Origin: an uncultured Rhizobium sp. | GTDB lineage: Bacteria; Pseudomonadota; Alphaproteobacteria; Rhizobiales; Rhizobiaceae | DNA length: 64,000 nucleotides | Reading direction: 5' to 3' | Assembly (NCBI GenBank): GCA_945952045.1 | Contig: CAMFHE010000008.1 | Location: 85,769-149,768 of the forward strand | Shown here: in pieces, positions 3,186 to 23,359 of the stretch | How the letters are laid out: each line of letters starts with the position of its first letter | How positions within the stretch are numbered: position 1 is the first letter of the stretch | Translations under genes and position numbers: made by a program | Notes under the pieces: model-generated | Told to the model about the DNA's origin: nothing | Databases searched by the model: none | The model's input: only the letters and a program-made list of their open reading frames with translations

Positions 3186-3805
3186 TTGAGGGCCTGCCGC
3201 CCGAACTCTGGGCTTTCGTGCTTGCCTCCTTCCTTATCGAACTGACGCCGGGCCCCAACATGACCTGGCTCGCGATGCTGGCGCTGGTGGAGGGGCGATT
3301 GCGGGGCTATGCCGCCGTTGCAGGCATCGGCCTGGGGTTGGCCCTGCTGGGTGCGGCGGCGGCGATAGGGCTTGCCGAACTTGTGCAGGCATCCTCCTTT
3401 CTTTACCAGGCGCTGCGCTGGGCCGGCGTCGGCTTCCTGCTCTATCTCGCCTATGACGGCTGGCGCGGCGAACCGGCGGCGGGCCCGCAGGATATTGCGG
3501 TGGACCTGCGTCGCGCCTTCCTGCGTGGGCTGACGACCAATCTGCTTAATCCAAAGGCGGCGATCTTCTACATCGCCGTGCTGCCGACCTTCGTTTCGTC
3601 CGGGCCGCCTCAGGCTGCGCAGATCGCGACGTTGACCGCCGCCTATGTCACGGTCGCCACGCTGGTGCATGCCGGCATCGTGACCCTGTGTGGCACCTTC
3701 GAGCGGTTGGTCGGCAAGGGGACGCGTGAACGCTATGTGCGGCGCAGCCTTTCCGTCTGCCTGGCGCTGGTTGCGGTCTGGTTCGCCTGGACGACGGCAA
3801 GATAA
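3182..3805 (+). CDS. LysE/RhtB family amino-acid exporter
   Basis: [35 protein letters not shown]...; TPGPN motif; overlaps the preceding stop. Confidence 0.88.
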
Positions 3806-3971: not shown

Positions 3972-4541
3972 ATGGGCACGATCGATCTGGAGCTGTTTGC
4001 GGATTGGGCGGAACAGCCGGCTGACACTGGCGAAGAGGCCGAGGGCGACGACGCGCGGCTGTTGCGCCGGGCCGGAAAGCTGTTGCTGGAGGTCAAGTCG
4101 CGCGAGGCGGGCGAGGGCGATCTGCGCGTGCTGCTCGGCGACATGACCCGCGAGATGCGGGCGCAGTTCGATTATTTCCGCGCCCTTCGTGAAAGCGCCG
4201 AAAAGGCGCTTGCCGATCCCGCCGACGAGGCGGCGGCGAAAACCTCGCGCGCCGATGCGAAGGCGGCGAGCGACGCCATGTCACTGATCGTGCGCACGCT
4301 GGAGAAGGTCGACAGCCTGCAGCGCCAGCTTGCCCATGACCGACAGCTGGAGGCCGAGAGGCAGGCGGATGCGCAAGACCCCGCCGCAGCCCGCGCTCAC
4401 TTCCTGGCGCTGATCGATGCCCGCGCCGAGGAGGCGGCAACGCTTCGCTTCGAACAATTCAAACAGGATTGGCTGAATGCGCGTGATCAAACCGATGGGC
4501 CTGCCGAACCGCAACCGCCGCCGCCGATGCAAGGCGGCTGA
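3972..4541 (+). CDS. GTA gp1 / terminase small-subunit-like protein
   Basis: Immediately upstream of TerL; acidic/coiled-coil-like MGTIDLELFADWAEQPADTGEEAEG... Confidence 0.55.
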   Translation: MGTIDLELFADWAEQPADTGEEAEGDDARLLRRAGKLLLEVKSREAGEGDLRVLLGDMTREMRAQFDYFRALRESAEKALADPADEAAAKTSRADAKAASDAMSLIVRTLEKVDSLQRQLAHDRQLEAERQADAQDPAAARAHFLALIDARAEEAATLRFEQFKQDWLNARDQTDGPAEPQPPPPMQGG

Positions 4542-5115
4542 CGGCAAGGCGATCGCGATCCTGAATGGGCATGAGCAGGGCATGATTGATATCGCAAGGC
4601 AACACGAGGGCGGGCTCGCCAAGGCCGCTGCATCGGCGCTGGAGGCCGGCCGCCGGCTTCTTCCCGCGCCTGCGCCCGACCTTTCCGGCGATCCGCTCGA
4701 CTTCGCTACCGTCCTTTCTCGTGATTGGACATTCCTGCGCCGGCGCGAACAGGCGCCGCCGCCGGGCGACTGGCGCAGTTGGCTGATCCTTGGCGGTCGT
4801 GGCTCCGGCAAGACGCGGGCCGGCGCGGAATGGGTGCATGAACTGGCGACGCGCCATCCCAATGCCGGCGAATTGCGCATCGCGCTGGTCGCCGAAACCC
4901 TGGGCGACGCCCGAGAGGTGATGATCGACGGCGTCTCCGGCATCTGCCGCATCGCCCGCGCCAAGCGCCCGGATTTCGAGGCATCGCGCCGGCGGCTGGT
5001 CTGGCCGACGGGCGCGATGGCGCAGATCTTCTCCTCCGAGGATCCGGAAAGCCTGCGCGGGCCGCAATTCCACTTCGCCTGGTGCGACGAGCTCGCCATG
5101 ATGAAAAATGTATAG
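4477..5115 (+). pseudogene. Terminase large subunit, N-terminal (ATPase) part, interrupted by the element
   Basis: Walker A GGRGSGKTRAGAEW and Walker B-like FAWCDELA, then premature MMKNV* from element DNA; continues at 12234. Confidence 0.9.
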
Positions 5116-5124
5116 AAGGTTCGA

Positions 5125-5706
5125 CTACTGATACGCCGCTTGAATTCTCATCACAGTTGCCCGACTTACGTTAAACCGTCTTGCCAGTTCTGAGTTCGTT
5201 GCGCCTTCTGCTGATCCGGCGATCAGCTCGTCGCATTCCCGTTTCGAAAGAGCCTTCGGCCTTCCGAGTGTCTTTCCCTCTGCCTTCGCCCTTTTCAAAC
5301 CAGCGTGGGTCCTTTCGACGAGCAATTCCCTTTCAAACTGAGCGAATGCCATGATGACGTTGAGCATCATTTTGCCAATGGCCGTCTGGAGTTCAAAGCC
5401 AGATAGGGCAAGACAATGGACCTCAATGCCTAAATCTGAAAGATGGCTCATTGTTCGGTTGATGTCTGCAACATCCCTTCCCAACCGGTCCAGCTTGGTC
5501 ACGATTAAGCGGTCACCTTTCTCAAGCTTCATCAGCAGCGTTTTAAAGCCTGCGCGCTCCAATGCGGGCGATGAACCAGAAACCGTCTCCGTGACAATTC
5601 TATGCTTCTCAATCTGGAAACCTTTGGTTTCGATTTCCCTGATTTGGTTCTCAGTTGTCTGTTCGCTTGTAGAAACACGGCAATACGCAAAAGTGCGGCT
5701 CATCAA
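5125..5706 (-). CDS. Small serine recombinase (resolvase/invertase family)
   Basis: 193 aa; TFAYCRVSTSEQTTENQ catalytic Ser region, LDRLGRD, GRPKALS and a C-terminal HTH (SELARRFNVSRATVMRI). Confidence 0.93.
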   Translation of the reverse strand: MMSRTFAYCRVSTSEQTTENQIREIETKGFQIEKHRIVTETVSGSSPALERAGFKTLLMKLEKGDRLIVTKLDRLGRDVADINRTMSHLSDLGIEVHCLALSGFELQTAIGKMMLNVIMAFAQFERELLVERTHAGLKRAKAEGKTLGRPKALSKRECDELIAGSAEGATNSELARRFNVSRATVMRIQAAYQ

Positions 5707-5766
5707 TCCACCTGTTCAAAATCGATGTGCAAAATGTACCTATGTTCAAAACCAAAGTAAAGGGTT

Positions 5767-5805
5767 TTTGAACGGTGAATGATGCGGAGTATTTCACCGT
5801 TCAAA
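5767..5805. repeat. 13-bp perfect inverted repeat upstream of the resolvase gene
   Basis: TTTGAACGGTGAA (5767-5779) / TTCACCGTTCAAA (5793-5805). Confidence 0.8.
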
Positions 5806-5927
5806 TACGTTCGTTTACGAACAGTATTATTGGAATATATTTTTGACGGTCGTAAAATTATTTTTTAGAATCTTAAATAAAAATTGATTTAAATTCGATT
5901 TTAACCTATAAATACATTAGAACTAAT

Positions 5928-6025
5928 CGTTGTCGGAGGCGAGGGTTCCCTCGCTATCGATGACAATTGGATACAGAGGGGCCTGAAATTGCTGACCGAC
6001 AACAGCAGTTTCAGGCCTCTTTTGT
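5928..6025 (+). ncRNA. Candidate structured RNA or origin-like hairpin region
   Basis: Hairpin GCGAGGG-tt-CCCTCGC within TTGTC...GACAA; second hairpin AGAGGGGCCTGAAATTGCTG...CAGCAGTTTCAGGCCTCT followed by TTTTGTCTT. Confidence 0.45.
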
Positions 6026-6187
6026 CTTGTAATCCAACCAGATTTTCAACTGCGAAAGAGGCTGATCCGCAACCAGCTATGGGGGTAGGGGTCGAGCCCA
6101 ATGTTTGTTGCAGAAAAATTTCAATAAATTCATGTGCTTTTATTTAAGGGCGCATTTGTTCAATTATTGCCAAATAAAGGCTTGAAA

Positions 6188-6889
6188 ATGCTGAGCACGA
6201 AGGAAATACTAAAGGAATACGCTAATTGGACAATCGAAAAGAAAAGCAGTGGTTGGATAGTATATCAAATTACGATAATGTTCGATCAATTAAATTTGGA
6301 TAATGGCCCATATAAACGTCAGATGACCAAATTGATCGATTTGTTATACATAAAACTGCTTTCTCGTGTTTTCAAACGAAAAGACGATCATGCGTATGAA
6401 AACTATCCAATATGGGTCCTTTGCCCGGATTTGCCTGTACCTAAGGTCAGGAAAAAGAAACTCAAAATCGAGGATGTGAAAATAAACGGCGGACTACACT
6501 ATCATGGGATCGTAATGATCCCGCCAAATAAACGAGATGACTTCGATCTAATTTATATAATTAAAAATTTTAATCATCTATATTGTATTCGAGGAATTGC
6601 ATCCATCCATATAGATACTGTTACAGAAACGCCAGAAAAGTTCTCAAATTACGTTCTAAAATCATTGCAACGCTTCAGGGCGAGTACAGACGATCTATTT
6701 ATTTTGCCAAAAAATTCCAGCGAAGAAGGTAATATTACTGAAATCGAACGCGAAGAAATAGATAAAGATATCGCCGTATCTCGCCGTGAAAGCGAAATAC
6801 GAAAAATTATAAATCTATCAAAATCAAATAAAGACGAATACGTATCGGCTTTTAAACCGTCCTCGACTATCTCAAATATAGCTGCCTAA
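6188..6889 (+). CDS. Candidate HUH endonuclease / Rep-like protein
   Basis: Motif I-like WIVYQITIMF, HUH motif GLHYHGIVMIP, Tyr motif FSNYVLKSLQR; start at MLSTKEIL is preferred over 6134. Confidence 0.5.
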   Translation: MLSTKEILKEYANWTIEKKSSGWIVYQITIMFDQLNLDNGPYKRQMTKLIDLLYIKLLSRVFKRKDDHAYENYPIWVLCPDLPVPKVRKKKLKIEDVKINGGLHYHGIVMIPPNKRDDFDLIYIIKNFNHLYCIRGIASIHIDTVTETPEKFSNYVLKSLQRFRASTDDLFILPKNSSEEGNITEIEREEIDKDIAVSRRESEIRKIINLSKSNKDEYVSAFKPSSTISNIAA

Positions 6890-6931
6890 TGATAAACGGG
6901 CATATTTTTAAGTGAAATCGTTGCAAACATT

Positions 6932-6954
6932 AAGGGGGCGAACAGCCCCCTTTT
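6932..6954. terminator. Bidirectional rho-independent terminator between convergent genes
   Basis: AAGGGGGC-gaaca-GCCCCCTTTT. Confidence 0.85.
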
Positions 6955-6981
6955 GTCGTTCACAAGCCGTCAATCGCGGGT

Positions 6982-9000
6982 TTATTGGCGGAACAGTTGC
7001 ATAACATTCTCGGCATTGCTGTTGGCAATTTGCAAGGCCTGTATAGCAAGCTGCTGTTGGGTTTGGAGCGCCTTAAGACGGGTCGAGGCTTCATTCATAT
7101 CGGCATCCACGAGACGGCCAATTCCCTTGTCCAGCGTATCCATCAATGTATGCGCGAAGTCCGTTTGCATGTCGATACGGGTCTTCACTGCACCAAGAGT
7201 CGAACCCGCATTGGTGACGCGCCTCAACATGGCATCAAGGCCATTGAGATAATTGTCGAGACTGTTGGCAGAATTCGTGATATCGACATCCACAATATTG
7301 AAATCAGCAACGATCCCAATGTTGTCGCCAAGTTTGTTGACGGCGATGACTGAGCGTGTTCCCCTGTTAGGATGGAGAGCGGTGTCGATATCCAGGGTGA
7401 TCGTACCTGTCTTGTCGGTTACCTTGACGCCCAAACTGGACATTGCCGCGTTGAGAACCTGCGCAAATTCTGCTGCTGTATTTATCATGCCGTCAGACGT
7501 ACCGAGCACGCTATCAACCAAATTGCGGTCTACACTGACCTGCTGGACAGTATTGTCCACGGTCAATTCAAATTGGAACGCAACGTCGCGATAGACGCGG
7601 AATGGCGATGTAAATGCGAACTGAGTTTTGGCATAATCGCCAATGCTGGTTGTTCCTGCTGTTGAGGTGCCAGTACCCACAAACCCGGTCGGGTCTTCGG
7701 AGTTGCGGGTAATGCCTTTAATGCCAACGGTCGCATCTGAAGTCGCGCCAAGAGTTTGAAACGTCAAGTTGGAGCCAGACGAGGCGACACTGATCTTTGT
7801 GTTGATGCCAGCATCCGTGAAAGCCTGCGTCAAAACGGTCGCGTACGCTGAGGTCGATGCGATAGCCCCAGTCGTTATGCCAAGCGCAGAATTGACCAAT
7901 GTATCGTCGATGGTCAGAAAATATGTTGTTCCGTCCACGTCAACTCGGAAATTGATGTTGTCCCCCGCATCAAGCAAAAGGGGCAAGTTGGCTGTCTGCC
8001 ATGTCTGCGTGGTGGGAACAACAAATCCAGTTGGTATCGCGCTTGGCGTACCGGTTATTTTCTCAATTGCGACCGTGGCTTGTGTGCTGCCAGTGGTTTC
8101 GAGGCTGCGGAAATAAAGACTGCCCGCCGTAGAACTCACAGTCACCTTGTTATCAATACCTGCATTTACGAATGCCTGCGTCAGAACAGCAGCATAATCG
8201 CTCGCATTGCTGATCGCTCCGGTGGAAACACCGAGCGTAGAATCGATAAGGGACTTATCGATTGTAAGAGTCTGCGATGCGGAGCCATCAATATCGACGG
8301 TCAGGGAAATCGTGTCGCTGCCCGTCAACGTGATCGGCAGGCCAGTAAGATTTCGCGTCTGGCTCCCCTGTCTTCCGCTATCATTGAGCGTTGCAGTGCG
8401 GAAACCACCGATATCACCCAAGCTGCGCGGATCGGCTTGCAATGCACCGCCACCACCGGCATTGAAAAGGCTGACATCCGCCAGTTCGAGCTTTGTCGTT
8501 CCGACTCTTACCGAGCCGTCAGAAGAGCGAATGAATGAGGAGACGATCTCGGCAGGCAATGAAGAGATTTCAAACAGTTGGCGAGGATCGTCTGTCTGTA
8601 GCCAGTTGACGCCGTTGAAGCTGGCGGAAGCTGCAACTGACTTCAATTGCTCCTTGAACTGATCCAATTCCTTTTGAATTTTTGTTTTGTCAACGCCCGG
8701 TTCTTTAGCAGCAACCAGTTTTGCGCGAAATTCGCTAAGGATATCTACCGTAGCATCGAGACCTGCATAGCTCGTATCGATCTTGGCGGCTCCGAGTCCC
8801 AATGCATCCGCCACAGCCGAAATCGCCATATTGTCGGAACGCATCGTCGTTGAAATCGACCAATAGGCAGCATTGTCTGCTGCGGTTTTTATGCGCAAGC
8901 CAGAACTAACTTGTTCCTGTGTCTTGTCGAGGTTGGAGCCAATGGTGCGAAGAGTCTGCAATGCAGCCATTGCTGCGGTGTTCGTCAAAATGCTGGTCAT
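6982..9000 (-). CDS. Large flagellin with expanded, repeat-containing central region
   Basis: N-terminus MTSILTNTAAMAALQTLRTIGSNLDKTQEQVSSGLRIKTAADNAAYWSISTTMRSD and C-terminus ...LKALQTQQQLAIQALQIANSNAENVMQLFRQ are diagnostic of Rhizobiaceae flagellin; 672 aa. Confidence 0.95.
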   Translation of the reverse strand: MTSILTNTAAMAALQTLRTIGSNLDKTQEQVSSGLRIKTAADNAAYWSISTTMRSDNMAISAVADALGLGAAKIDTSYAGLDATVDILSEFRAKLVAAKEPGVDKTKIQKELDQFKEQLKSVAASASFNGVNWLQTDDPRQLFEISSLPAEIVSSFIRSSDGSVRVGTTKLELADVSLFNAGGGGALQADPRSLGDIGGFRTATLNDSGRQGSQTRNLTGLPITLTGSDTISLTVDIDGSASQTLTIDKSLIDSTLGVSTGAISNASDYAAVLTQAFVNAGIDNKVTVSSTAGSLYFRSLETTGSTQATVAIEKITGTPSAIPTGFVVPTTQTWQTANLPLLLDAGDNINFRVDVDGTTYFLTIDDTLVNSALGITTGAIASTSAYATVLTQAFTDAGINTKISVASSGSNLTFQTLGATSDATVGIKGITRNSEDPTGFVGTGTSTAGTTSIGDYAKTQFAFTSPFRVYRDVAFQFELTVDNTVQQVSVDRNLVDSVLGTSDGMINTAAEFAQVLNAAMSSLGVKVTDKTGTITLDIDTALHPNRGTRSVIAVNKLGDNIGIVADFNIVDVDITNSANSLDNYLNGLDAMLRRVTNAGSTLGAVKTRIDMQTDFAHTLMDTLDKGIGRLVDADMNEASTRLKALQTQQQLAIQALQIANSNAENVMQLFRQ

Positions 9001-9921
9001 ATTGAAACCTGCGGCACGAACCAAGCCATCGCCGCGCACAAGTGTGCGCACGTCCTTGGAGTGCTGAAACATGATTAAAGTGGCAGGATTTTACGCAATT
9101 CGCCTCATGGCGAAATGAAAACAAATACTCTAAAATCGTATCGGAAATCACGAGTTCCTATTAACGGGACACCCTGTGATTGCTTCGTTAACCGTTTTTC
9201 AACATTCTTAGTTAACAAAAAGTTAATGAATGCCAACATTAAGTTGAACTATAAAAATTTGGGGGTCTTCCAGATGGTAATATGGCCCCCAGGAGACGGC
9301 CAATGAGTCAGCAGCACTGGAGGTGCTTCAAATCGATAGCCAGCGAATTTCCGTGGTTAGCGGATGCTTAAATAGCGCGTGTGAACCGTACTCATCGAAA
9401 ATCCACTTTATCGGCGCGATGATATCATTGGATTTTGAGTAAGATTTTCTTCATAGATGGCTTTCCACCTATAGAGATTGCAGATCAATACTTATGCGCT
9501 GCACATCCGTTGAAAATAATCGCTAACGTGGCAGACTCTCACCCGACGCGCCTCTTTGCGATGAAAACTTCAAAAATGACATATATGTCAATGGCTTAAT
9601 GCTGAAAAATCGAATTGCCACTGGTCTAACGTCCAATTCGAATTTCGAATTAACGTAATGTCGAATATTGACCGCCCATACTGCAACGTATGGTGGGCGT
9701 TCTATTGTGCAGTATTCAAAAAAATTCTATAAAGTAATAATCGATGAGCTAACTAACGCCTGCAAAAAACCCGTGTGTCGCGATACGATGTCGCTAAAAA
9801 ATGGGTGAGCGCGTAATATTTTGTCACCAAAACTGAGAAATGCGGAAATATAATTATTTCAATTTGATTGATTACGAGAAGAATATAAATTAAAAATAGA
9901 TAATACATAATATTGAACTAT

Positions 9922-9964
9922 ATAATTCATTTTATAAGCAATATAAGCGAGGTAAATGAATTAT
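9922..9964. repeat. 11-bp perfect AT-rich inverted repeat
   Basis: ATAATTCATTT (9922-9932) / AAATGAATTAT (9954-9964). Confidence 0.7.
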
Positions 9965-10000
9965 GTAATATTATTAGACGGAATAACATTTTCGACAAAA

Positions 10001-10159
10001 TCAAATTACAACGACAACGTCTGTGTCCTTTCGCTCCAGCGCGTTGATTTGCTCTTCCAAGGTGCAAATCTGTTGATACATATCCTCAAATATCACCATT
10101 GCGTATTCGATGTAAATTTTTGAAGTTTTGACGCGAGCAGAAAGTATTTCCTTTTTCAT
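10001..10159 (-). CDS. Small 52-aa ORF downstream of the large serine recombinase
   Basis: MKKEILSARVKTSKIYIEYAMVIFEDMYQQICTLEEQINALERKDTDVVVI; below the ORF-track cut-off; coiled-coil-like. Confidence 0.45.
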   Translation of the reverse strand: MKKEILSARVKTSKIYIEYAMVIFEDMYQQICTLEEQINALERKDTDVVVVI

Positions 10160-10233
10160 TATAATTTTCCGAATTTAATGAATTGAATCTCAAATGTATT
10201 TAATGTAATTCAATTGAGAAATTTTTTTGGTAA

Positions 10234-12162
10234 TTACATTGATTCGCGATCTCGTTTTTTGAAGAAATTATTGTTGCTGTTCACAGCAAGCTCTATTTGC
10301 TTTTCATCGAGCCCAAAAGACTTTAGCGTGCTAATCATCGCCTTTCTTGCCATGGGGTCAACTGGCCCATTTTCCGCTAAGATGTCGCGATAGCTTGCTC
10401 TATCGCCCTTGACGATGGCTTCAAGTGCCTTCTTTATCTGTTTGTCCGATAGGGAGAGTGCCCTTAGTAATGCCTCTCTATCCGAGGCTCGGGTAATACA
10501 AAGGTATTTAAACTCTATGTCTATTGACGCCTCTGATCGTATGTATGCGTCCGCGAAATTTTGTTTTCTAAAAATTTCTCCAATTTTATTAAATTGGTAT
10601 ACTTTAGTAAAGCCGGCGACATATGCACACACAATCCCATCGTCAAAATCAAAAGTTAACAAGTTGATAAATCTCCGCATTGTTGAAGCAATGTTCGCGC
10701 GAGAAGTAAAAACTTTATTGTCGTCAGTGCATGTTTGCCAATAATCAAGATGGTTGCGTATTTCTTCAATACAATTTATATTTTCATTATTTGTAGCGTT
10801 TTCAGAAGATATCAGATCATTTAATCGTTTTATTGATAATTCCTTTTCTTTTATATTATTGCGTAGAGAGTTAATATCGTTCTGAACGTCGCGTCTGTCT
10901 TCCTCATCGTCAAGACCGCTGGCCAAGCTTATGAGATTTGTTCGCCTTTTTTTCAATGAATCAATCTCACCTTGGAGACGTTCAACATTGAAGGAAAGCT
11001 CTTGCGATGGTATCCTATTCGCGTTGCGCATATTTTGGTCGTCTTTTTGAAAATCGACGATGTTTGTCAATATTCCGCTTTCGATAAGTTCGTATCTCAT
11101 GCTCGTACGTGAACAGGTGGTCCTTGATGATGTAAGTCTTTCTGAGCATGAAAGATAATATAGAGGTTTATTCTTGGATCCGCCTCTAATAAAGCGCAGC
11201 GTACTGCTACATTTGGCGCACTTGGAGTAACCTGCAAATAGGTTTGAGTACCTTCTCCCGTGTGGGCCAGTCGCTTTGAGCTTCCTTTTATTAGAAACGC
11301 GATAGAATAGTTCTTTATCAACTGCTGCGGGATAATAGTCTTCCAAGGACGCAATTAGATATCGGCTTCCGTTGTCATCTTTATTGTAAATATTATATGT
11401 ACCGATTGCCATCTCGTTTTTGAGAATGGACCAAACAGACGCATCTTTCCAACGCATTCGTCTGTTTGTCGCAGAACGCATCACCGGATATGCTTCATCA
11501 TTTAAGATACGTGCAATTGAATGAGCGCCGATATCTGCGTCAGCTAATTCAAATATTCGTTTTATCGATTTCGATTTCTCAGGATCAAGCTTGAATTCGT
11601 AGTCCTTGGTACCCGGTAGCCGCTCCTGAACAATCCACCCGGGTAAATGGTGATTGTAGCGTTTCTGCCCAGCTGCGGCTTCAGTTTTCCGCTTGCTAAT
11701 TGCAGCTTTTACGCGTTCGGATTTTTCAAATGACTCGTTGTTAGCTCGACTCATGATTGTGAGAGAGATTATCAACTGTGTGAAATCTCTGGTTTTTTGA
11801 TAGACCTGTCCGTCAATTAACGTGACCACGATTATTTCCGCGCTCAGCAGGTTTATAAAGTGTCCTTGCGCGGTCACGACATCCTCACGGCTGAGTCTAT
11901 CTAAGCTTTCTACTAAGAGATAAGAGCCCGGCGATACCTTGCCTGAGTTGACCAACGACAGGAATGCGCCCAACGCGCCAAATTTCGTATTGTCACCGTG
12001 AAACCCACTTGAACCTTCATCAATTAGGACATCTGAATCATCGAGATCGAGACCATTTCGGGCAGCATATTCCTTCGCTGCAGCTATCTGTCGTTCAATG
12101 CCGGACCCTACTTTTTGGCGTTTAGAGGAGATGCGCGCGTAAGAATAGGCTTTGGGATTCAT
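10234..12162 (-). CDS. Large serine recombinase (integrase)
   Basis: N-terminal YARISSKRQKVGSGIERQI, LVESLDRLSRED, recombinase domain with zinc-ribbon cysteines (CAKCSSTLRF...CSERLTSSRTTC) and coiled coil; 5' end lies ~80 bp from the right junction. Confidence 0.95.
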   Translation of the reverse strand: MNPKAYSYARISSKRQKVGSGIERQIAAAKEYAARNGLDLDDSDVLIDEGSSGFHGDNTKFGALGAFLSLVNSGKVSPGSYLLVESLDRLSREDVVTAQGHFINLLSAEIIVVTLIDGQVYQKTRDFTQLIISLTIMSRANNESFEKSERVKAAISKRKTEAAAGQKRYNHHLPGWIVQERLPGTKDYEFKLDPEKSKSIKRIFELADADIGAHSIARILNDEAYPVMRSATNRRMRWKDASVWSILKNEMAIGTYNIYNKDDNGSRYLIASLEDYYPAAVDKELFYRVSNKRKLKATGPHGRRYSNLFAGYSKCAKCSSTLRFIRGGSKNKPLYYLSCSERLTSSRTTCSRTSMRYELIESGILTNIVDFQKDDQNMRNANRIPSQELSFNVERLQGEIDSLKKRRTNLISLASGLDDEEDRRDVQNDINSLRNNIKEKELSIKRLNDLISSENATNNENINCIEEIRNHLDYWQTCTDDNKVFTSRANIASTMRRFINLLTFDFDDGIVCAYVAGFTKVYQFNKIGEIFRKQNFADAYIRSEASIDIEFKYLCITRASDREALLRALSLSDKQIKKALEAIVKGDRASYRDILAENGPVDPMARKAMISTLKSFGLDEKQIELAVNSNNNFFKKRDRESM

Positions 12163-12233
12163 GATGCATATCTACTTTGCAGCGAGAAATTATTCGGCCC
12201 TATGGACTTATCGCCTACCCATTTTCCATTTCG

Positions 12234-13079
12234 TTAAGCGAACTGGCCAAGTGGAAATATGCGCAGGCCTGCTGGGACATGCTGCAATTCGGCCTGCGCC
12301 TCGGCGCGCGGCCGCGCCAGCTTGTGACGACGACGCCCCGGCCGGTGCCGCTTCTGAAGGCGCTGATGGCCGACCCGGAGACGGCGCTGACAAAGATCAG
12401 CACCGATGCCAACCGCGCCAATCTGGCCCCGGGCTTCATCGAGGCTCTGGCGCATCGCTATGGCGGCTCGAGACTTGGGCGGCAGGAACTGGATGGCGAA
12501 CTGATCGAGGATCGCGATGACGGTCTTTGGAAACGCGAGGCGATCGAGGCGGTGACGCTGCGGGTCACCGGGCCGCTCCGGCGCATCGTCGTGGCGGTCG
12601 ATCCGCCGGCAAGCGCGGGGCCGAATGCCTGTTGCGGCATTGTCGTCGCCGGTCTGGATGGGGCCGGGCGCGGCGTCGTGCTGGCGGATTGCTCGGTGCC
12701 GGCGGCAAGTCCCGCCGCCTGGGCGAGCGCGGTGGTGCGCGCTTTTCGCCGTTTCGATGCGGACCGGGTGGTGGCCGAAATCAATCAGGGCGGCGATATG
12801 GTCGGCGCCATGTTGCGCAGCGTCGATGTGGCGCTGCCGGTGACGACGGTGCGCGCGACGCGTGGCAAATATCTGCGCGCCGAACCGGTCGCAGCGCTTT
12901 ATGAACAGGGGCGCGTGATCCATGCCGGCCGCTTTGCCGAACTGGAGGACCAGATGTGCGACTTCGGCCCGGAGGGGCTTTCCTCGGGCCGCTCGCCGGA
13001 CCGGCTGGACGCGCTGGTCTGGGCGCTGACGGCGCTGATGCTGGAAGGGGCCGGCGAGCCGCGCGTGCGCGGCATCTGA
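12234..13079 (+). pseudogene. Terminase large subunit, C-terminal (nuclease) part
   Basis: SELAKWKYAQACWDMLQFGLRLGARPRQLVTTTPRP...VAVDPPAS...GRSPDRLDALVWALTAL; frame intact to its stop. Confidence 0.9.
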
Positions 13080-15476: not shown

Positions 15477-16637
15477 ATGAACCTTCGATCCCTGCTGCCG
15501 TGGCGCGCCATGGCGGCGCGAAAACCCACGTCTGAAACCAAGGCCGTCTCCGGTCTCTCCGCATTCTCCGGCGAGGCGCGGGCGGCGTGGACGGCGCGAT
15601 CCTATCCGGCGCTGGCGCGTGAGGGTTTCATGCGCAATCCGGTGGCGCATCGCGCCGTTCGGATGATCGCCGAGGCCGCAGCCGCGGTGCCGTGGCTGGT
15701 CTATGAGGGTGAGCGCGAGATCGAGGAACATGCACTGATCGATCTCGTCGCCCGGCCGAACGGCCGCATGGGCGGGCCGGATTTCTTCGAGGCGCTCTAC
15801 GGGCATCTGTTGCTGTCGGGAAATGCCTATGTGCAGCCGGTGCTGGCGGCGGGACACCTGCGCGAGCTGCATCTGCTGCGGCCGGATCGGGTGAGCGTCG
15901 TCGCCGGCGTCGATGGCTGGCCGGTCGGCTATGATTATCGCATCGGCAATGCCGTCAGGCGCTTTGCCGCAGAGCCGGTGGAGGGGCTGGGTCTGCTGCA
16001 CCTGAAACTCTTCCATCCGCTCGACGACCATCTCGGCTTTCCGCCGCTCGCCGCCGCACAGACGGCGCTCGACCTGCACAACGCCGCCGCGACCTGGAAC
16101 AAGGCGTTGCTCGACAATTCCGCAAGGCCCTCAGGCGCGCTGGTCTACCAGCCGAAGGAGGGCGGCAATCTTTCGCCAGACCAATATGAGCGGCTGAAGG
16201 CGGAGCTGGAAAACGGCTATGCCGGGGCGGTGCGCGCCGGCCGTCCGTTGCTGTTGGAAGGCGGGCTCGACTGGAAGACGATGAGCCTCTCGCCGCGCGA
16301 CATGGATTTCATCGAGGCGCGCAACGGGGCGGCCCGCGATATCGCGCTCGCCTTCGGCGTTCCGCCGATGCTGGTCGGCATTCCCGGCGACGCCACCTAT
16401 GCCAATTATCAGGAGGCCAACCGCGCCTTCTATCGCCTGACGGTGCTGCCGCTGATCCAGCGCATCGCCGCCAGCCTTTCCGCCTGGCTGTCGCCGGTCT
16501 ATCGCGAGGCCCTGCGGCTGGAGCCCGATCTCGACCGCATCGCCGGCCTTTCCGCCGAGCGCGACGCGCTCTGGGCGAGGGTAGGGGGTGCCGGCTTCCT
16601 CACCGAGGAAGAGAAGCGGCAAGCGGTCGGATACTGA
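15477..16637 (+). CDS. Phage/GTA portal protein (gp3-like)
   Basis: NPVAHRAVRMIAEAAAAVPWLVYEG...GVPPMLVGIPGDATYANYQEANRAFYRLTVLPL. Confidence 0.93.
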   Translation: MNLRSLLPWRAMAARKPTSETKAVSGLSAFSGEARAAWTARSYPALAREGFMRNPVAHRAVRMIAEAAAAVPWLVYEGEREIEEHALIDLVARPNGRMGGPDFFEALYGHLLLSGNAYVQPVLAAGHLRELHLLRPDRVSVVAGVDGWPVGYDYRIGNAVRRFAAEPVEGLGLLHLKLFHPLDDHLGFPPLAAAQTALDLHNAAATWNKALLDNSARPSGALVYQPKEGGNLSPDQYERLKAELENGYAGAVRAGRPLLLEGGLDWKTMSLSPRDMDFIEARNGAARDIALAFGVPPMLVGIPGDATYANYQEANRAFYRLTVLPLIQRIAASLSAWLSPVYREALRLEPDLDRIAGLSAERDALWARVGGAGFLTEEEKRQAVGY

Positions 16638-16823
16638 TACAAAATCAATGATTTGGTTCGTGTGGCGGAATCGATTTTCGATCCCGTTGAATCGCTTTGC
16701 CAGAGGCTTGGCATTGCGCGTGAAGAAACGCGGATAAGCGATTCTTTCGACTCCGATATCGCCGTTCACAGCTGCGAAATTTCGGCGAAAATGTAAGCGC
16801 AGTCTAACCGGAGGGCGTTAACC

Positions 16824-17144
16824 ATGGCTGACTTCGGCAATGAACCCGGGCTGTGGGTGGCGCGCACGGCGGGCGCATCCGCAGGGGCGGCCGTATCGCT
16901 GGTCTATCTGTTGCCGAAAAGCCGGCGCGAGGCGGCCGGACGCTTCTTCACCGGCCTGACCTGCGGCCTGATCTTTGGAGGCCCGACCGGGGCTTGGCTG
17001 ATCGAGCGCATGCAGCTTGGCGGCCAGATGTCGCCTTTCGAAACCCTGCTTGCCGGCTCGGCGGCATCGAGCCTCAGCGCCTGGTGGGCGCTTGGCATCC
17101 TCGCCCGCATCGCCGGCCGTTACGGCGCTCGCCCCGAGCGCTGA
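16824..17144 (+). CDS. Small GTA-linked membrane protein
   Basis: MADFGNEPGLWVARTAGASAGAAVSLVYLLPKSRREAAGRFFTGLTCGLIFGG... between portal and protease. Confidence 0.6.
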   Translation: MADFGNEPGLWVARTAGASAGAAVSLVYLLPKSRREAAGRFFTGLTCGLIFGGPTGAWLIERMQLGGQMSPFETLLAGSAASSLSAWWALGILARIAGRYGARPER

Positions 17145-17169
17145 TCCCCTTTTATCTCAGGAGACATTC

Positions 17170-17751
17170 ATGAGGAACGCTGATCGCGGGCCGCGCCCCG
17201 CCACGACCCGTTTCGCCGCATTGACGCTGAAGGGCGTCACCGGTGAGGGGCGGTTTTCCGGCTATGCCAGCCTGTTCGGCGAGGTCGATCTCGGCAAGGA
17301 CGTCATCGAGCGTGGCGCTTTTTCCCGCTCGCTGACGGAACGTGGCTCGGGCGGCGTGCGCATGCTCTTCCAGCACGATCCGGCCGAGCCCATCGGCGTC
17401 TGGACCACGATCCGCGAGGATGCGCGCGGCCTTTATGTCGAGGGCCAGCTCGCCACCGGCGTCGCCCGCGCCCGCGAGGTGCACCAGCTGATGAAAAGCG
17501 GCGGCCTGGATGGTCTCTCCATCGGCTTCCAGACGGTGCGCGCCCGCAACGATGCCAAGGGCGGCATCCGTCGCATTCTCGAGGCCGATCTCTGGGAGAT
17601 CTCGGTCGTCACCTTTCCGATGCTGCCCTCGGCCCGCGTTTCCAACGTCAAGCATGCCCGCTGGTTTCGCGATGCCGAAACCGAGCTGGCCCGCACGCTG
17701 CGCCGCGCCGCGCGCACTCTCTTCAAACCCCGCCAGCCCTCGAAAGGATAG
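17170..17751 (+). CDS. HK97 family prohead protease (gp4-like)
   Basis: FSGYASLFGEVDLGKDVIERGAFSRSL...LFQHDPAEPIGVW. Confidence 0.92.
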   Translation: MRNADRGPRPATTRFAALTLKGVTGEGRFSGYASLFGEVDLGKDVIERGAFSRSLTERGSGGVRMLFQHDPAEPIGVWTTIREDARGLYVEGQLATGVARAREVHQLMKSGGLDGLSIGFQTVRARNDAKGGIRRILEADLWEISVVTFPMLPSARVSNVKHARWFRDAETELARTLRRAARTLFKPRQPSKG

Positions 17752-17755
17752 CTGC

Positions 17756-19003
17756 ATGACTGAAGCCACCGAAAAATCCGCGCCGGAAATCAAGGCCGTG
17801 CCGGACAATGTCAACGCCGCCTTCGACGAGTTCATGTCGGCCTTCGAAACCTTCCGCGAGGTCAACGACCGCCGTCTGGACGAAATCGAAAGCAAGCTGA
17901 CCGACGACGTCGTGACCCGCGAGCGCGTCGAGCGCATCAACCGCGCCATGGACGAGCAGAAGAGCCTGCTCGACCAGCTCGTGGTCAAGAAGGCCCGCCC
18001 ACCGCTGGGGCGCGGCGGCGCGGTCGAGACGAGCGAGCACAAGGCCGCTTTCGAAGCCTATATCCGCCGGGGCGACGAGGGCGCGCTGCGCGATCTCGAA
18101 GCCAAGGCCTATTCGTCCGGCACGGGCGCGGATGGCGGCTATCTGGTGCCGCCGGAAACCGATACCGAAATCGGCCGCCGCCTGTCGGTGGCCTCTCCGA
18201 TCCGCGCGCTGGCAACGGTGCGCCAGGTCTCGGCCGCCGTTCTGAAAAAGCCGTTTTCGCTGAGCGGTCTTTCCTCCGGCTGGGTGGCGGAAACGGCGGC
18301 GCGGCCGCAGACCAACACGCCGCAGCTGGCCGAACTCTCCTTCCCGACCATGGAGCTTTACGCCATGCCGGCGGCGACGCAATCGCTGCTCGACGATGCC
18401 GCCGTCGATATCGAGGCCTGGATCTCGGCCGAAGTCGATATCGTCTTCGCCGAGCAGGAGGGCGCGGCCTTCGTCAATGGCGACGGCACCAACAAGCCGA
18501 AGGGATTTCTGTCCTATACGACGGTGGCCGAAAGCGGCTGGAGCTGGGGCAATATCGGCTATATCGCCTCCGGTGCCGCCGGCGCCTTCAAGACCAGCGG
18601 CCCCTCGGATGTGCTGGTCGATACCATCTATGCGCTGAAGGCCCGCCATCGCCAGAATGCCGGCTTCGTCATGAACCGGAAAACGCAGGCCGAGATCCGC
18701 AAGTTCAAGGATGCCGACGGAAATTACCTGTGGCGTCCGCCCGTCGCCGCCGACCAGCCGGCCTCGCTGATGGGCTTTGCGGTGACGGAGGCCGAGGACA
18801 TGCCGGATATCGCCGCCAATTCGCTCTCCATCGCGTTTGGCGATTTCCGCGCCGGCTATCTCGTCGTGGATCGGACCGGCGTGCGCATCCTGCGCGATCC
18901 CTTCTCCGCCAAGCCCTATGTGCTGTTCTACATGACGAAACGCGTTGGCGGCGGGGTGCAGGATTTCGAGGCGATCAAACTGGTGAAGTTCGCGGCGAGC
19001 TGA
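17756..19003 (+). CDS. HK97 family major capsid protein (gp5-like)
   Basis: YSSGTGADGGYLVPPETDTEIGRRLSVASPIRALATVRQVS...FVNGDGTNKPKGFLSY. Confidence 0.95.
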   Translation: MTEATEKSAPEIKAVPDNVNAAFDEFMSAFETFREVNDRRLDEIESKLTDDVVTRERVERINRAMDEQKSLLDQLVVKKARPPLGRGGAVETSEHKAAFEAYIRRGDEGALRDLEAKAYSSGTGADGGYLVPPETDTEIGRRLSVASPIRALATVRQVSAAVLKKPFSLSGLSSGWVAETAARPQTNTPQLAELSFPTMELYAMPAATQSLLDDAAVDIEAWISAEVDIVFAEQEGAAFVNGDGTNKPKGFLSYTTVAESGWSWGNIGYIASGAAGAFKTSGPSDVLVDTIYALKARHRQNAGFVMNRKTQAEIRKFKDADGNYLWRPPVAADQPASLMGFAVTEAEDMPDIAANSLSIAFGDFRAGYLVVDRTGVRILRDPFSAKPYVLFYMTKRVGGGVQDFEAIKLVKFAAS

Positions 19004-19042
19004 GCCGGCGCTCTCTGCCGCAACCGTGATTGCGGCAATTTC

Positions 19043-19066
19043 CCCTTCTCCCCGCGGGGAGAAGGG
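19043..19066. repeat. Perfect 24-bp palindrome between capsid and connector genes
   Basis: CCCTTCTCCCC-GC-GGGGAGAAGGG. Confidence 0.8.
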
Positions 19067-19113
19067 ATTTGCGGCACAGCCCTATTCCAATTTCCAAATC
19101 CCCGGAGACATCA

Positions 19114-19677
19114 ATGACCTATGCCCTGATCGCGCCGCCGGTGGCGGAGCCGTTGACGCTTGTGGAGGTGAAGGCGCATTTGCGCCTCGACGGCGACGAC
19201 GAGGATGCGCTGCTGACGAGCCTTATCCGCGCCGCCCGCGAGCATCTGGAGCGGATGAGCGGGCTGGCGCTGGTCAACCAAGGCTGGCGGCTTTATCTCG
19301 ACGTCTGGCCGGAGGGGCCGATTCAAATTGGCAGGGCGCCGGTGCAAGCCATTGAATCGGTGACGATCTATGACGCGGCCGGTGCGCCGGTCAGCGTCCC
19401 GCTTGACGGCCATATGCTGGACGGGCAGGCGATGCCGGCGCGGCTGATGCTGTCGCAAAGCCCTGATACGGCGCGGGCGCTGAACGGCATCGAGATCGAT
19501 TTCACCGCCGGCTTCGGCAATGCCGTCGATGTGCCGGACGGTTTGAAACGGGCGATGCTGACGCATATCGCCCAGATGTTTTCCTGCCGTGGCGTCGTAT
19601 CTCCGGACAATCAGCCGGCGCTCATTCCCGATGGGTACGAACGGCTGGTTGCGCCCTGGCTGCCGAGGAGGCTCTGA
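19114..19677 (+). CDS. GTA gp6-like head-tail connector
   Basis: PLTLVEVKAHLRLDGDDEDALLTSLIRAAREHLERMSG. Confidence 0.88.
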   Translation: MTYALIAPPVAEPLTLVEVKAHLRLDGDDEDALLTSLIRAAREHLERMSGLALVNQGWRLYLDVWPEGPIQIGRAPVQAIESVTIYDAAGAPVSVPLDGHMLDGQAMPARLMLSQSPDTARALNGIEIDFTAGFGNAVDVPDGLKRAMLTHIAQMFSCRGVVSPDNQPALIPDGYERLVAPWLPRRL

Positions 19678-19679
19678 CC

Positions 19680-20015
19680 ATGCCTGTCGCTTTTCTCGAT
19701 CCCGGCCAGTTTTCCGCGCGGCTGGAACTGGAAGCGCCGGTTGCCACGCCGGACGGGCAAGGCGGGGCGGAGATCGCCTTTGCCGGTATTGCCGCGCTCT
19801 GGGCGCTGGTCGAGCCGGTGAGCCAGGCCTATGGCGAGATCGCAGGCGCCGATGCCGCCACGATCAGCCATCGCATCTGGATACGGTTTCGCTGCGATAT
19901 CGTCGCCGGCCAGCGGCTGCGCAAGGGCGCGCGCCTGTTCACCATCCGCACCGCCCGCGATCCCGATGAAAGCGGCCGCTATCTCGTCTGCTATTGCGAG
20001 GAGGAGGGCAAATGA
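19680..20015 (+). CDS. Phage head closure / head-tail adaptor protein
   Basis: MPVAFLDPGQFSARLELEAPVATPDGQGGAEIAFAGIAALWALVEPVS. Confidence 0.85.
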   Translation: MPVAFLDPGQFSARLELEAPVATPDGQGGAEIAFAGIAALWALVEPVSQAYGEIAGADAATISHRIWIRFRCDIVAGQRLRKGARLFTIRTARDPDESGRYLVCYCEEEGK

Positions 20016-20410
20016 GCGCCGCGAACGCCCTGATGCAAGCCATCCATGCACGGCTTGCCGACGATGTCGCGCTGACGGCGATCATCGGCGCCGATGGCAT
20101 TCACGACCGGCTGCTCGACCGTCCGCGTCTGCCCTGCATCGTCATATCGGAGCTGCGCAGCGAGGATTTTTCGACCGCGACAGAAACGGGCGAGGAGCAT
20201 TTCCTGACGCTCGAAGCCTGGTCGGCGGAGCAGGGGCAGCGCCAGGCGCAGGAGATCGCGGGCCGGCTGCGCGCCCTTCTGCATGATGCCGATCTGGCGC
20301 TTGTCGGCGCGACGCTCGTCAACCTGCAGCACCGCACGACGCGGGCGCGGCGCGAGCCGAAGTCGCGCCGCCATGTCGCCGAATTGCGCTTCCGCGCGGT
20401 TACCGAATGA
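20012..20410 (+). CDS. DUF3168 tail-completion protein (gp8-like)
   Basis: MSAANALMQAIHARLADDVALTAIIGADGIHDRLLDRPRLPCIVISELRSEDFSTATETGEEHFLTLEAW. Confidence 0.85.
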   Translation: MSAANALMQAIHARLADDVALTAIIGADGIHDRLLDRPRLPCIVISELRSEDFSTATETGEEHFLTLEAWSAEQGQRQAQEIAGRLRALLHDADLALVGATLVNLQHRTTRARREPKSRRHVAELRFRAVTE

Positions 20411-21623
20411 GAGGTTCGCCCGCCGCCCTGGCGCGACGGATGATGACCCACAAGACGAGCGTCAGCAGAAGCGACAGCATCGACAACAGCGTGATGGTGA
20501 CGATGACGGCATTGAGGCCGAGGCGGTCGAGAATGCCGGTGAAGATGACGGGTGCCACGGCGCTGGCCAGATTTTGCGGCAGCGACAGCCGCGCCGACTG
20601 CATGCCGAATTCCTGCCGTGAGAATACGAGCAGCGGCAGCAGGGCGCGCGCCACGGTCACCACGCCGGTGCCGAAACCATACAGCACCACGAAGCCGACC
20701 AGCAGCGGCGGCGCAGAACCGGCAAAGGCGAGCATGACGAAGCTGGCGACCAGCATCAACACACCGGCCGTCGTTCCGATCAGCGGCGAGCTTCGCCGGC
20801 CGAGCAGCATGTCGAGAAAGCGGGCGGCGATGCCCATGACCCCGCGCAACGAGCCAAGCTCCAGCGCGAAGGCGGGTGACGCGCCGGAGAGGCTGAGGAT
20901 ATGCAAGAGCGACGGCGTCAGCCCATAGGTGACGAAGGTCGCCAGCATGGTCGAGACGGCGATCAGCAGGAAGGCGGCCGTTCTCTGTCGCGGGCTGAGG
21001 CGGATGGGGGCGATATCGTGTCCCTCATCCGCCGTCGCCGCAGCCCCGGGGCGCGGCAGGACGAAGAGATGCAGCGGCAGGCAGACGCAAAGATGGATGA
21101 AGGCGGTGACGACGAAGGTCATGCGCCAGCCGATCTCGGCCTGCACGGCATTCAGGAGCGGCCAGAAGACGGCGCTGGAGAGGCCGGTGAACAGCATCAG
21201 GATGGCGATGACCCGGCCAGCGCGCAAGCCCTCGCGTTCGACGATGGCCGTATAGGCCGGCGGCGACAGGCCGAGCGCCCCTCCGAAGCCGATGACCGCC
21301 CAGGCAAGAATATAGCTGACTAGCCCCTGCGCCGCCGAGAGCGCCAGCAGGCCGAAGAAGAACACGACCGAGCCGGCGGCGAGCACGTTTCGTGCGCCGA
21401 ACCGGGTGAGCCAGCGGCCGGTCGCCGGGCCTGCCAGCGCGCTGACCAGCATCATCACCGAAATGCCGAGAAAGATCACCTCGTTGGCGAGGCCGAGATC
21501 GGGCGCGATGATGCGGCCCATGACGCCGAGCATGTCGAAGGTCGTGCCCCAGCCGACGAGCTGGGTGATCGCCAGGACGGCGACGGTGACCGCCGGGCGG
21601 CTTGAGGCGGGGGCATGCGGCAT
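20400..21623 (-). CDS. MFS transporter, antisense within the GTA cluster
   Basis: 407 aa with repeated TM segments; ITQLVGWGTTFDMLGVMGRIIAPDLGL... Confidence 0.88.
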   Translation of the reverse strand: MPHAPASSRPAVTVAVLAITQLVGWGTTFDMLGVMGRIIAPDLGLANEVIFLGISVMMLVSALAGPATGRWLTRFGARNVLAAGSVVFFFGLLALSAAQGLVSYILAWAVIGFGGALGLSPPAYTAIVEREGLRAGRVIAILMLFTGLSSAVFWPLLNAVQAEIGWRMTFVVTAFIHLCVCLPLHLFVLPRPGAAATADEGHDIAPIRLSPRQRTAAFLLIAVSTMLATFVTYGLTPSLLHILSLSGASPAFALELGSLRGVMGIAARFLDMLLGRRSSPLIGTTAGVLMLVASFVMLAFAGSAPPLLVGFVVLYGFGTGVVTVARALLPLLVFSRQEFGMQSARLSLPQNLASAVAPVIFTGILDRLGLNAVIVTITLLSMLSLLLTLVLWVIIRRARAAGEPLIR

Positions 21624-21710
21624 GGGTTTTTCGAATCCGGCAGGTCAGACCGGCGGTCTAGCACGCTTCGCGTGAGGCCGCATCCGGTTGCGCGGAAATT
21701 TCAACCGAGA

Positions 21711-21766
21711 GCATTTCCAGGAAAAGCGGATACCGATTTTCCGTCCGGAAATGCGACAAGACAAAA
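21711..21766. repeat. Dispersed palindromic repeat, copy 1
   Basis: GCATTTCCAGGAAAAGCGGATACCGATTTTCCGTCCGGAAATGCGACAAGACAAAA; inverted counterpart at 57056-57111. Confidence 0.75.
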
Positions 21767-21775
21767 GAGGACGAC

Positions 21776-22183
21776 ATGGTTGCTCAGAAGGGCAAGGATC
21801 TGCTCCTGAAGGTCCATAACGGCAGCGCCTATGAAACGGTGGCCGGCCTGCGCTCCAAGCGGCTCGGCTTCAATGCCGAGACGGTGGATGTCACCGATGC
21901 CGAAAGCGCCGGGCGCTGGCGCGAGCTTCTCGCCGGTGCCGGGGTGCAGCGCGCATCCCTTTCGGGCGCTGGCATCTTCAAGGATGCGGCCTCCGATGCG
22001 ACGCTGCGCGCAGCGCTGTTTGCCGGCACCATCCTCGACTGGCAGATCGTCATCCCCGATTTCGGCACGGTGACCGGGCCGTTCCAGATCACCGCCCTCG
22101 AATATTCCGGCCAGCACAATGGCGAGCTGCAATTCGAGCTGGCGCTGGAATCGGCCGGCGCGCTCAGTTTTGGTGCGTTGTGA
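21776..22183 (+). CDS. GTA major tail protein (gp9-like)
   Basis: MVAQKGKDLLLKVHNGSAYETVAGLRSKRLGFNAETVDVTDAESAGRWRELLAGAGVQRASLSGAGIFKD. Confidence 0.9.
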   Translation: MVAQKGKDLLLKVHNGSAYETVAGLRSKRLGFNAETVDVTDAESAGRWRELLAGAGVQRASLSGAGIFKDAASDATLRAALFAGTILDWQIVIPDFGTVTGPFQITALEYSGQHNGELQFELALESAGALSFGAL

Positions 22184-22551
22184 TGACGGGGCGACAGGGA
22201 CGCGCCAACCGCCGGCGCGGCGAAATCGAGGCGGTCATCGATGGCGAGCGCCGCATTCTCTGCCTGACGCTGGGGGCGTTGGCCGAACTGGAAACGACCT
22301 TCGCCGCCGACAATCTCGCCGATCTCGCCGCCCGCTTCGAAAGCGGGCGGCTGCGGGCCGTCGATATCATCCGCCTCGTCGGCGCCGGGCTTCGCGGCGG
22401 CGGCAATGTGGTCTCGGATGAAGACGTGGCGATGGCCGATATCGAGGGCGGCATCGCCGGCTGCGCCACCATCGTCCGCGATCTCCTGACCGCGACGTTT
22501 CTGGAGCCCGGCCCCGGACACGGTATGGAGGCCGCCCCGCCGCGCCCTTGA
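22180..22551 (+). CDS. GTA gp10-like (gene transfer agent family) protein
   Basis: RANRRRGEIEAVIDGERRILCLTLGALAELETTFAADNLADLAARFESGRL. Confidence 0.85.
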   Translation: MMTGRQGRANRRRGEIEAVIDGERRILCLTLGALAELETTFAADNLADLAARFESGRLRAVDIIRLVGAGLRGGGNVVSDEDVAMADIEGGIAGCATIVRDLLTATFLEPGPGHGMEAAPPRP

Positions 22552-22772
22552 GCGCCGCGGCAGGCGAGACACGGCCGGCGCCCTTCCCGTGGGACAGGGC
22601 GATGCATGCCGGCCTCTGCCTGCTGCGGCTCGATGCCGGCAGTTTCTGGGCGATGACTCCCCGCGAACTCCATGCCGCCACCGGCGGCCTGACGCCCGAT
22701 GCTGGGGCGCCGGATCGGCCGGCGCTGGCCGCGCTGATGCGGCGCTTTCCAGATAAGCCCGAAAGGATATGA
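22548..22772 (+). CDS. Phage tail assembly chaperone-like protein
   Basis: PFPWDRAMHAGLCLLRLDAGSFWAMTPRELHAATGG. Confidence 0.8.
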   Translation: MSAAAGETRPAPFPWDRAMHAGLCLLRLDAGSFWAMTPRELHAATGGLTPDAGAPDRPALAALMRRFPDKPERI

Positions 22773-23347
22773 GCATGGACGACCAGTCCCTCGACGACAT
22801 GACCCGCAATGCCTCCGCCCTGGGTGAGGTGCTGACCGATCTCGAAACCCGCTCGCGCGCCTTCGGCTCCGTCTTGTCAGGTGCTTTGCGGCAGGCGGCG
22901 AGCGGCAGCAAGAGCCTCGAAGATATTTTGCGCGGGGTCGGTACACGCTTGGGCGATATCGCGCTGTCGGTTGGGCTGAAGCCGCTGGAAGGGCTGGTCG
23001 GCAATACCGTTTCGGGCTTGGCCGGAAATCTCGGCTCGCTCTTCGCCTTTTCGCGCGGCGGCGTGCCGGGGCGAGTGACGCCCTTTGCCGACGGCGGCAT
23101 CGTTTCCGCACCCACCTACTTTGCCATGGAGGGCGGCCGTGGGCTGATGGGCGAGGCTGGCGCGGAGGCGATCCTGCCGCTGAAACGCGGCTCCGATGGC
23201 GCGCTCGGCGTCGCGGCGGCCAGTGGCGGCGGCGCCAGCATCGTCTTCAACATCACCACCCCCGACGCCGAAAGCTTTCGCCGCAGCGAAGGCCAGCTTT
23301 CCGCCATGCTCGCCCGCAGCGTCGGGCGCGGGCAACGGAATATTTGA
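22769..23347 (+). CDS. Short tape-measure protein (gp11-like)
   Basis: SLEDILRGVGTRLGDIALSVGLKPLEGLVGNTVSGLAGNLGSLFAFSRGGVPGRVTPFADGGIVSAPTYFAMEGGRGLMGEAGAEAILPLKRG. Confidence 0.88.
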   Translation: MSMDDQSLDDMTRNASALGEVLTDLETRSRAFGSVLSGALRQAASGSKSLEDILRGVGTRLGDIALSVGLKPLEGLVGNTVSGLAGNLGSLFAFSRGGVPGRVTPFADGGIVSAPTYFAMEGGRGLMGEAGAEAILPLKRGSDGALGVAAASGGGASIVFNITTPDAESFRRSEGQLSAMLARSVGRGQRNI

Positions 23348-23359
23348 GGGAAAAGAACC

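Follow-up and report, generated by a model that had tools for sequence, protein, structure and literature searches.

A large flagellin gene was found as the cargo of a short integrative element that splits the terminase gene of a GTA cluster, and it belongs to a lineage of oversized flagellins that, judged from sequence comparisons, is horizontally mobile and recurrent on unrelated mobile elements in Rhizobiaceae. The window, meaning the whole stretch of 64,000 nucleotides that was analysed, comes from a 6.0-Mb Rhizobiaceae genome (contig region C8:85769-149768). The explanation that accounts best for the whole, and which we consider probable, is that a serine-recombinase element in terL carries a mobile accessory flagellin that re-coats the filament, with a changed phage receptor as the most plausible benefit. 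In this way bacteria may exchange the exposed surface of their flagella along with mobile DNA.

The element covered about 7.15 kb of the window (5092-12244), where the GC content dropped from 65% to 44%. The assembly had an estimated contamination of 8%; nevertheless, the element and the GTA genes were contiguous on one stretch. Only four recognisable genes were found between the att sites by ORF calling and by searches against Pfam and PHROG. The element and its target were composed as follows.

4477-5091, plus strand: 5′ part of the terminase large subunit gene (Terminase_6N, Pfam E = 1.8e-18), cut at the Walker-B 'WCDEL' codons
5083-5099, no strand: attL, from the alignment against the empty site and the M. 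album and Mycoplana junctions, with the probable crossover CT at 5092-5093
5125-5706, minus strand: small serine recombinase of the resolvase/DNA-invertase type, 193 aa (Pfam Resolvase E = 3.1e-38)
6134-6889, plus strand: orf251, candidate HUH (rolling-circle type) Rep with H-x-H and Y-x-x-K motifs
6982-9000, minus strand: large flagellin, 672 aa (from Pfam, tree, selection and model)
10234-12162, minus strand: large serine recombinase (integrase), 642 aa, with Resolvase, Recombinase and Zn_ribbon_recom domains
12238-12248, no strand: attR, from the same junction alignment, with the probable crossover dinucleotide CT at 12243-12244
12245-13079, plus strand: 3′ part of the terminase gene (Terminase_6C, Pfam E = 1.2e-22), 83% aa identity to M. 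album
15477-24873, plus strand: remaining RcGTA-like cluster by Pfam, with portal, S78 protease, capsid, connector, tail tube, GTA-gp10, DUF2460 and hub

The initial annotation had placed the flagellin on a serine-integrase element inside a GTA terminase gene, and each part of this claim was borne out. Terminase_6N lay to the left of the element and Terminase_6C to the right, and Pfam revealed the RcGTA-like gene order terL-portal-protease-capsid-connector-tail, including GTA-gp10, at the target, with baseplate genes further along. The large serine recombinase, located at one end of the element, combined Resolvase, Recombinase and Zn-ribbon domains in one protein and matched a PHROG integrase (E = 1.3e-65). 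The status of the flagellin as cargo was supported by its position within a low-GC element, whose borders are fixed by an empty site in a congener and by the occupied site in M. album. An MFS transporter-like ORF (20400-21623, minus strand) was also observed between the GTA head and tail genes, and a similar gene was present in L087 and L294.

The empty site, in the congener G106 (locus L082), reads TGGTGCGACGAACTGGCGAAGTGG and encodes WCDELAKW. In the occupied window the left junction reads TGGTGCGACGAGCT followed by CGCC, and the right junction reads GCGAACT followed by GGCCAAGTGG. The same break point was found in Metarhizobium album (G178, locus L065), where a related element also carried a flagellin, and in Mycoplana azooxidifex, where the two terminase halves were on two contigs. 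There was accordingly a single conserved attB site, empty in L082 and occupied at the same base in the window, M. album and Mycoplana. The crossover would be CT within the DEL codons of the Walker-B motif of the packaging ATPase, and the element would have entered through its own large serine recombinase with these conserved codons as attB. Since the element splits terL, GTA packaging should be abolished. The inner ends of the M. album element (3607-3627 and 15080-15100 of L065) formed an inverted repeat, which fits the expectation for the attP of a serine recombinase.

The combination of cargo, carrier and site had been called unusual, but it is not a one-off: M. album has a sister element with a flagellin at this very site, and tRNA islands across Rhizobiaceae carry further large flagellins of this kin. 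A comparison between the window and M. album showed 80-83% aa identity and a dS of about 0.8 for the flanking host genes, and 82% identity with a dS of 1.0 for the main-cluster flagellin ortholog, whereas the element genes were only 34-57% identical with saturated dS. Furthermore, G106 was closer to the window (terL dS 0.48) than M. album was, yet it was without the element. Descent of a single element within Metarhizobium was therefore disfavoured, and the comparison suggests that both elements, with the same kind of cargo, were most likely acquired separately at the same site. The Mycoplana genome with the occupied site contained no large flagellin, which indicates that the flagellin is cargo and not a core part of these elements.

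No structural or packaging phage genes of its own were present in the element, so it did not qualify as a prophage, and the absence of type IV secretion and relaxase genes from the 7.15 kb set it apart from integrative conjugative elements. In E. coli minor-flagellin loci a fliC repressor lies adjacent; no regulator ORF was found beside the flagellin within the element, which in this respect departs from a flk-type islet. Remnants of the genes common to tRNA islands were sought in the window, and none rose above chance. In orf251, the residues H122, H124, Y173 and K176 were invariant across a six-sequence alignment at 23-34% identity. Family searches with orf251, Pfam and PHROG among them, gave no match, no relaxase family matched, and a low-confidence predicted model (pLDDT of 49) gave no significant match to a solved fold. 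HUH-like H-x-H and Y-x-x-K motifs were observed in three unrelated families of small proteins on flagellin-bearing elements (window 6134-6889, L066:1815-2408 and L199:5468-6802). The 1.2 kb between flagellin and integrase (9001-10233) were AT-rich and without a long ORF, and a flagellin leader or a decayed gene may lie inside.

The flagellin ORF was intact on the minus strand, from the ATG at 9000 to the stop at 6982, and an in-frame ATG at 9072 is an alternative start that would give 696 aa. Flagellin_N (E = 2.1e-30, 106 bits) and Flagellin_C (E = 2.3e-16, 60 bits) scored well above the cut-offs of 26.6 and 23 bits. The protein was indeed far larger than typical, as had been noted from the sequence: the host's other flagellins have 315-322 aa, about half its length, and those of R. 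leguminosarum have 301-337 aa (PMC2936354). The D0/D1 ends were canonical, and the extra length consisted of three tandem surface domains of about 100 residues.

8020-8340, minus strand: surface repeat 1, residues ~221-327 (z = 24 with repeat 2; a fold unit in the AF2 model)
7678-7986, minus strand: surface repeat 2, residues ~339-441 (self-alignment and AF2 model)
7330-7569, minus strand: surface repeat 3, residues ~478-557 (z = 13 with repeat 1; AF2 model)

Self-alignment of the repeats against shuffled sequences gave z-scores of 24, 13 and 8. Each repeat was modelled by AF2 as strands, two helices and strands with a pLDDT mostly of 80-94, and D0/D1 were modelled at low confidence. The flagellin family profile matched S. 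meliloti flagellin A (7sn9) at 1.6e-116, and this was also the best fold match.

A tree was built from D0/D1 alone, with large flagellins defined as those of at least 540 aa. Of these, 48 large Rhizobiaceae flagellins formed one clade (SH-aLRT 99), separate from every conventional flagellin sampled, including the host's own, and a second, smaller set of large flagellins was nested within the conventional part of the tree. The window flagellin grouped with those of M. album, G352, G157 and G220 (genus code g76), an A. tumefaciens MAG and Ciceribacter sichuanensis (support 95). Its D0/D1 shared 76-78% identity with the ends of the flagellins from M. album, G157 and G352; with the host's own flagellins the value was 42-65%. 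Vertical descent as part of the main fla cluster, the outcome that would have spoken against the original proposal, was rejected on the tree and the locus. Matches to the surface region were found in 71 of 398 Rhizobiaceae genomes, scattered across 35 of 109 genera. Two other sources were considered and rejected: a phage-encoded flagellin, with zero matches among 50,697 phage records, and a plasmid origin, with matches that were merely partial and more distant (best 43% over 91%). In IMG/VR, flagellins were found on four contigs and were clearly of the large-flagellin lineage in just one or two. On one IMG/VR contig with phage terminase- and portal-like genes, a large flagellin (L195:3796-5532) was seen by eye beside an apparent IS630-type transposase.

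Mobile linkage was scored when a flagellin lay within 5 kb of a recombinase or within 2.5 kb of a tRNA. By this measure 24 of the 48 large-clade flagellins were linked, compared to 0 of 48 conventional ones (Fisher p = 2e-9, a value that is optimistic because the loci are related and the conventional contrast group sits in stable clusters). The nearest kin of the window flagellin outside the genus were located on islands at tRNA-Arg(CCG), which carried the flagellin, a tyrosine integrase and small proteins with HUH-like motifs; a large serine recombinase was present in some and in others not. Two further searches that did not ask for a flagellin agreed with this. Among 80 integrases related to the window's, 5 had a large flagellin within 10 kb (about 0.06 expected), one of them (L095) a remnant, and of 11 islands carrying the tyrosine integrase Xer1 (at least 50% identity), 5 had a large flagellin as well.

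Selection was estimated mainly from relatives of the window flagellin because the window gene's own pairs were near dS saturation. The dN/dS of D0/D1 was about 0.07-0.13 where dS was well measurable, with single comparisons up to 0.18, and the surface region diverged faster than D0/D1. The surface region appeared exchanged between L100 and L152; the A. tumefaciens/Ciceribacter pair, with a dN of 0.05 in the N-terminal D0/D1 and 0.49 in the surface, showed the pattern seen after a surface swap. A motif that recurs upstream of flagellin genes was also found.

9187-9216, minus strand: two GTTAAC motifs at -192 and -216 from the start codon, common to large and conventional flagellin upstreams, with a putative role in expression

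GTTAAC occurred within 300 bp upstream of 32 of 48 large and 31 of 48 conventional flagellins, compared to 2.8% of background 300-bp windows. The window motifs lie farther upstream than in most relatives (-75 to -104), and in this AT-rich upstream region a chance GTTAAC is less improbable. Purifying selection on D0/D1 and the upstream GTTAAC together fit an expressed filament subunit, and expression of the flagellin is likely, given the selection in relatives and the flagellin-type motif. A LuxR-type HTH gene of about 230 aa adjoined the large flagellin in seven loci (L072, L074, L209, L210, L211, L230 and L231), placed as a local regulator would be.

The flagellin could instead be the passenger of a decaying element and silent in this strain, a reading that we consider improbable. 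It would agree with the lack of an ORF between flagellin and integrase, with an element that is without the other genes of larger islands, and with a promoter-like motif located far upstream. However, the 672-aa frame and the integrases are intact, D0/D1 are under strong purifying selection across the lineage, and two elements that arrived separately at one site both retained the same gene. Even less probable is a phase-variable cassette, with the flagellin segment inverted or moved by the small serine recombinase in the manner of Hin on fljBA. The small recombinase resembles DNA invertases (PHROG DNA invertase E = 3.7e-57; a 56% homolog is found in the M. album element), and in the M. album element the flagellin and the recombinase are oppositely oriented, but the gene-order difference exceeds one inversion and the best bracketing inverted pair (5093-5117/9089-9113) was only 72% identical over 25 nt, as by chance. 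No convincing repeats of the kind that would support an invertible flagellin switch were found around the segment.

The sequence features point most clearly to an accessory filament subunit, and the flagellin most likely re-coats the host's filament. It would be transcribed from a flagellin-type promoter, exported through the host's flagellar apparatus and copolymerised with the host's own flagellins via the conserved D0/D1 ends, and the three extra surface domains would then present a different surface to phages, hosts or surfaces. A benefit to the host is plausible. The benefit that keeps the flagellin as cargo is most plausibly, as our leading guess, an altered receptor surface for flagellotropic phages. 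Such phages exist for Agrobacterium (PMC3517404), and after exchange of D2/D3 in Salmonella the cells were partly motile and fully resistant to phage chi (PMC10399903). It counts against this reading that accessory flagellins may leave the motility of R. leguminosarum almost unchanged (PMC2936354).

The extra flagellin could also serve motility alone, through a stiffer or thicker filament or niche-specific swimming, with no relation to phages and with the element as a mere vehicle. This alternative is possible but clearly the less favoured one. In R. leguminosarum, extra flagellins make up a minor part of the filament and influence motility differently from strain to strain (PMC2936354), and several large-flagellin loci have fixed positions within a genus and no recombinase, as for a useful resident gene. 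In contrast, the sporadic distribution of the surface region (the 71 of 398 genomes above), the fast-evolving and swapped surface domains and the defence genes that adjoin several mobile copies suggest a diversifying rather than a mechanical role.

The defence genes were seen in a selective look at the neighbourhoods and their linkage to mobile large flagellins is a lead only. DISARM DrmA and a methyltransferase lay near the flagellin in L074, a type IV restriction enzyme beside it in L202, and an OLD/AriA/GajA-like ATPase in L203; L066 and L207 contained candidate defence genes, and PADLOC candidates were among the genes seen. In the same selective look, an anti-phage defence gene was observed near the mobile large flagellin in L221. 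A broader proposal is speculative and on balance unlikely: oversized flagellins would be mobile, receptor-changing phage-defence cargo, often beside DISARM, type IV restriction and OLD/Gabija-like genes, and elements of the same integrase family would inactivate the host GTA via the terminase attB. If true, this inactivation would also stop the lysis that accompanies GTA production.

Related integrases were also found at other GTA genes. In Rhizobium L087 and L090/L091, the elements of related integrases abutted the 22 codons at the 3′ end of the GTA capsid gene, and in Methylobacterium L134 a more distant relative of the window integrase split the GTA portal gene. In IMG/VR L292-L295, the same terL point was occupied by prophages whose integrases have 42-45% identity to the window's; the structural genes of these prophages were judged podovirus-like by eye. 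The terL, capsid and portal insertions indicate that GTA genes are repeated targets of this integrase family, and the shared GTA-terminase attB points to a recurrent shut-down of GTAs by phages and small elements that integrate in them. A literature search that covered few subscription journals found no paper describing GTA genes as targets of this family.

If our preferred reading of a mobile accessory subunit is right, what the rhizobial flagellum mainly exposes is in part a trait exchanged via mobile elements, beyond allelic recombination, and the driver of extreme flagellin surface diversity, a long-standing question, becomes testable in tractable soil bacteria. The mobile large-flagellin lineage appears previously unremarked as far as the literature searched shows.

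The podovirus-like prophages share the integrase family and the terL insertion point with the window element, but they carry phage structural genes and the 7-kb window element has none. In Salmonella, the fljBA-hin locus has a second flagellin near a serine recombinase. The window differs in that its recombinases are an integrase and a small enzyme. FlaE, FlaH and FlaG of R. leguminosarum are likewise extra flagellins outside the main cluster, one of them plasmid-borne, but they have 302-337 aa, whereas the large clade has at least 540 aa and is phylogenetically separate from the conventional flagellins sampled (PMC2936354). The flkA, fllA, flmA and flnA flagellins of E. coli (cited in PMC7018530) are likewise imported flagellins outside the main cluster, linked to the excisable flk islet, and they change the filament surface. 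The E. coli strains with these minor flagellins have an inactivated fliC and unilateral phase variation, whereas the window host keeps its conventional flagellins; further differences from the flk islet are that the window element contains no repressor gene and that the flagellin travels on a serine-recombinase element inserted into a GTA gene. Because excisable flagellin islets are already known in E. coli (PMC7018530), what is new here is the carrier, the insertion site and the lineage.
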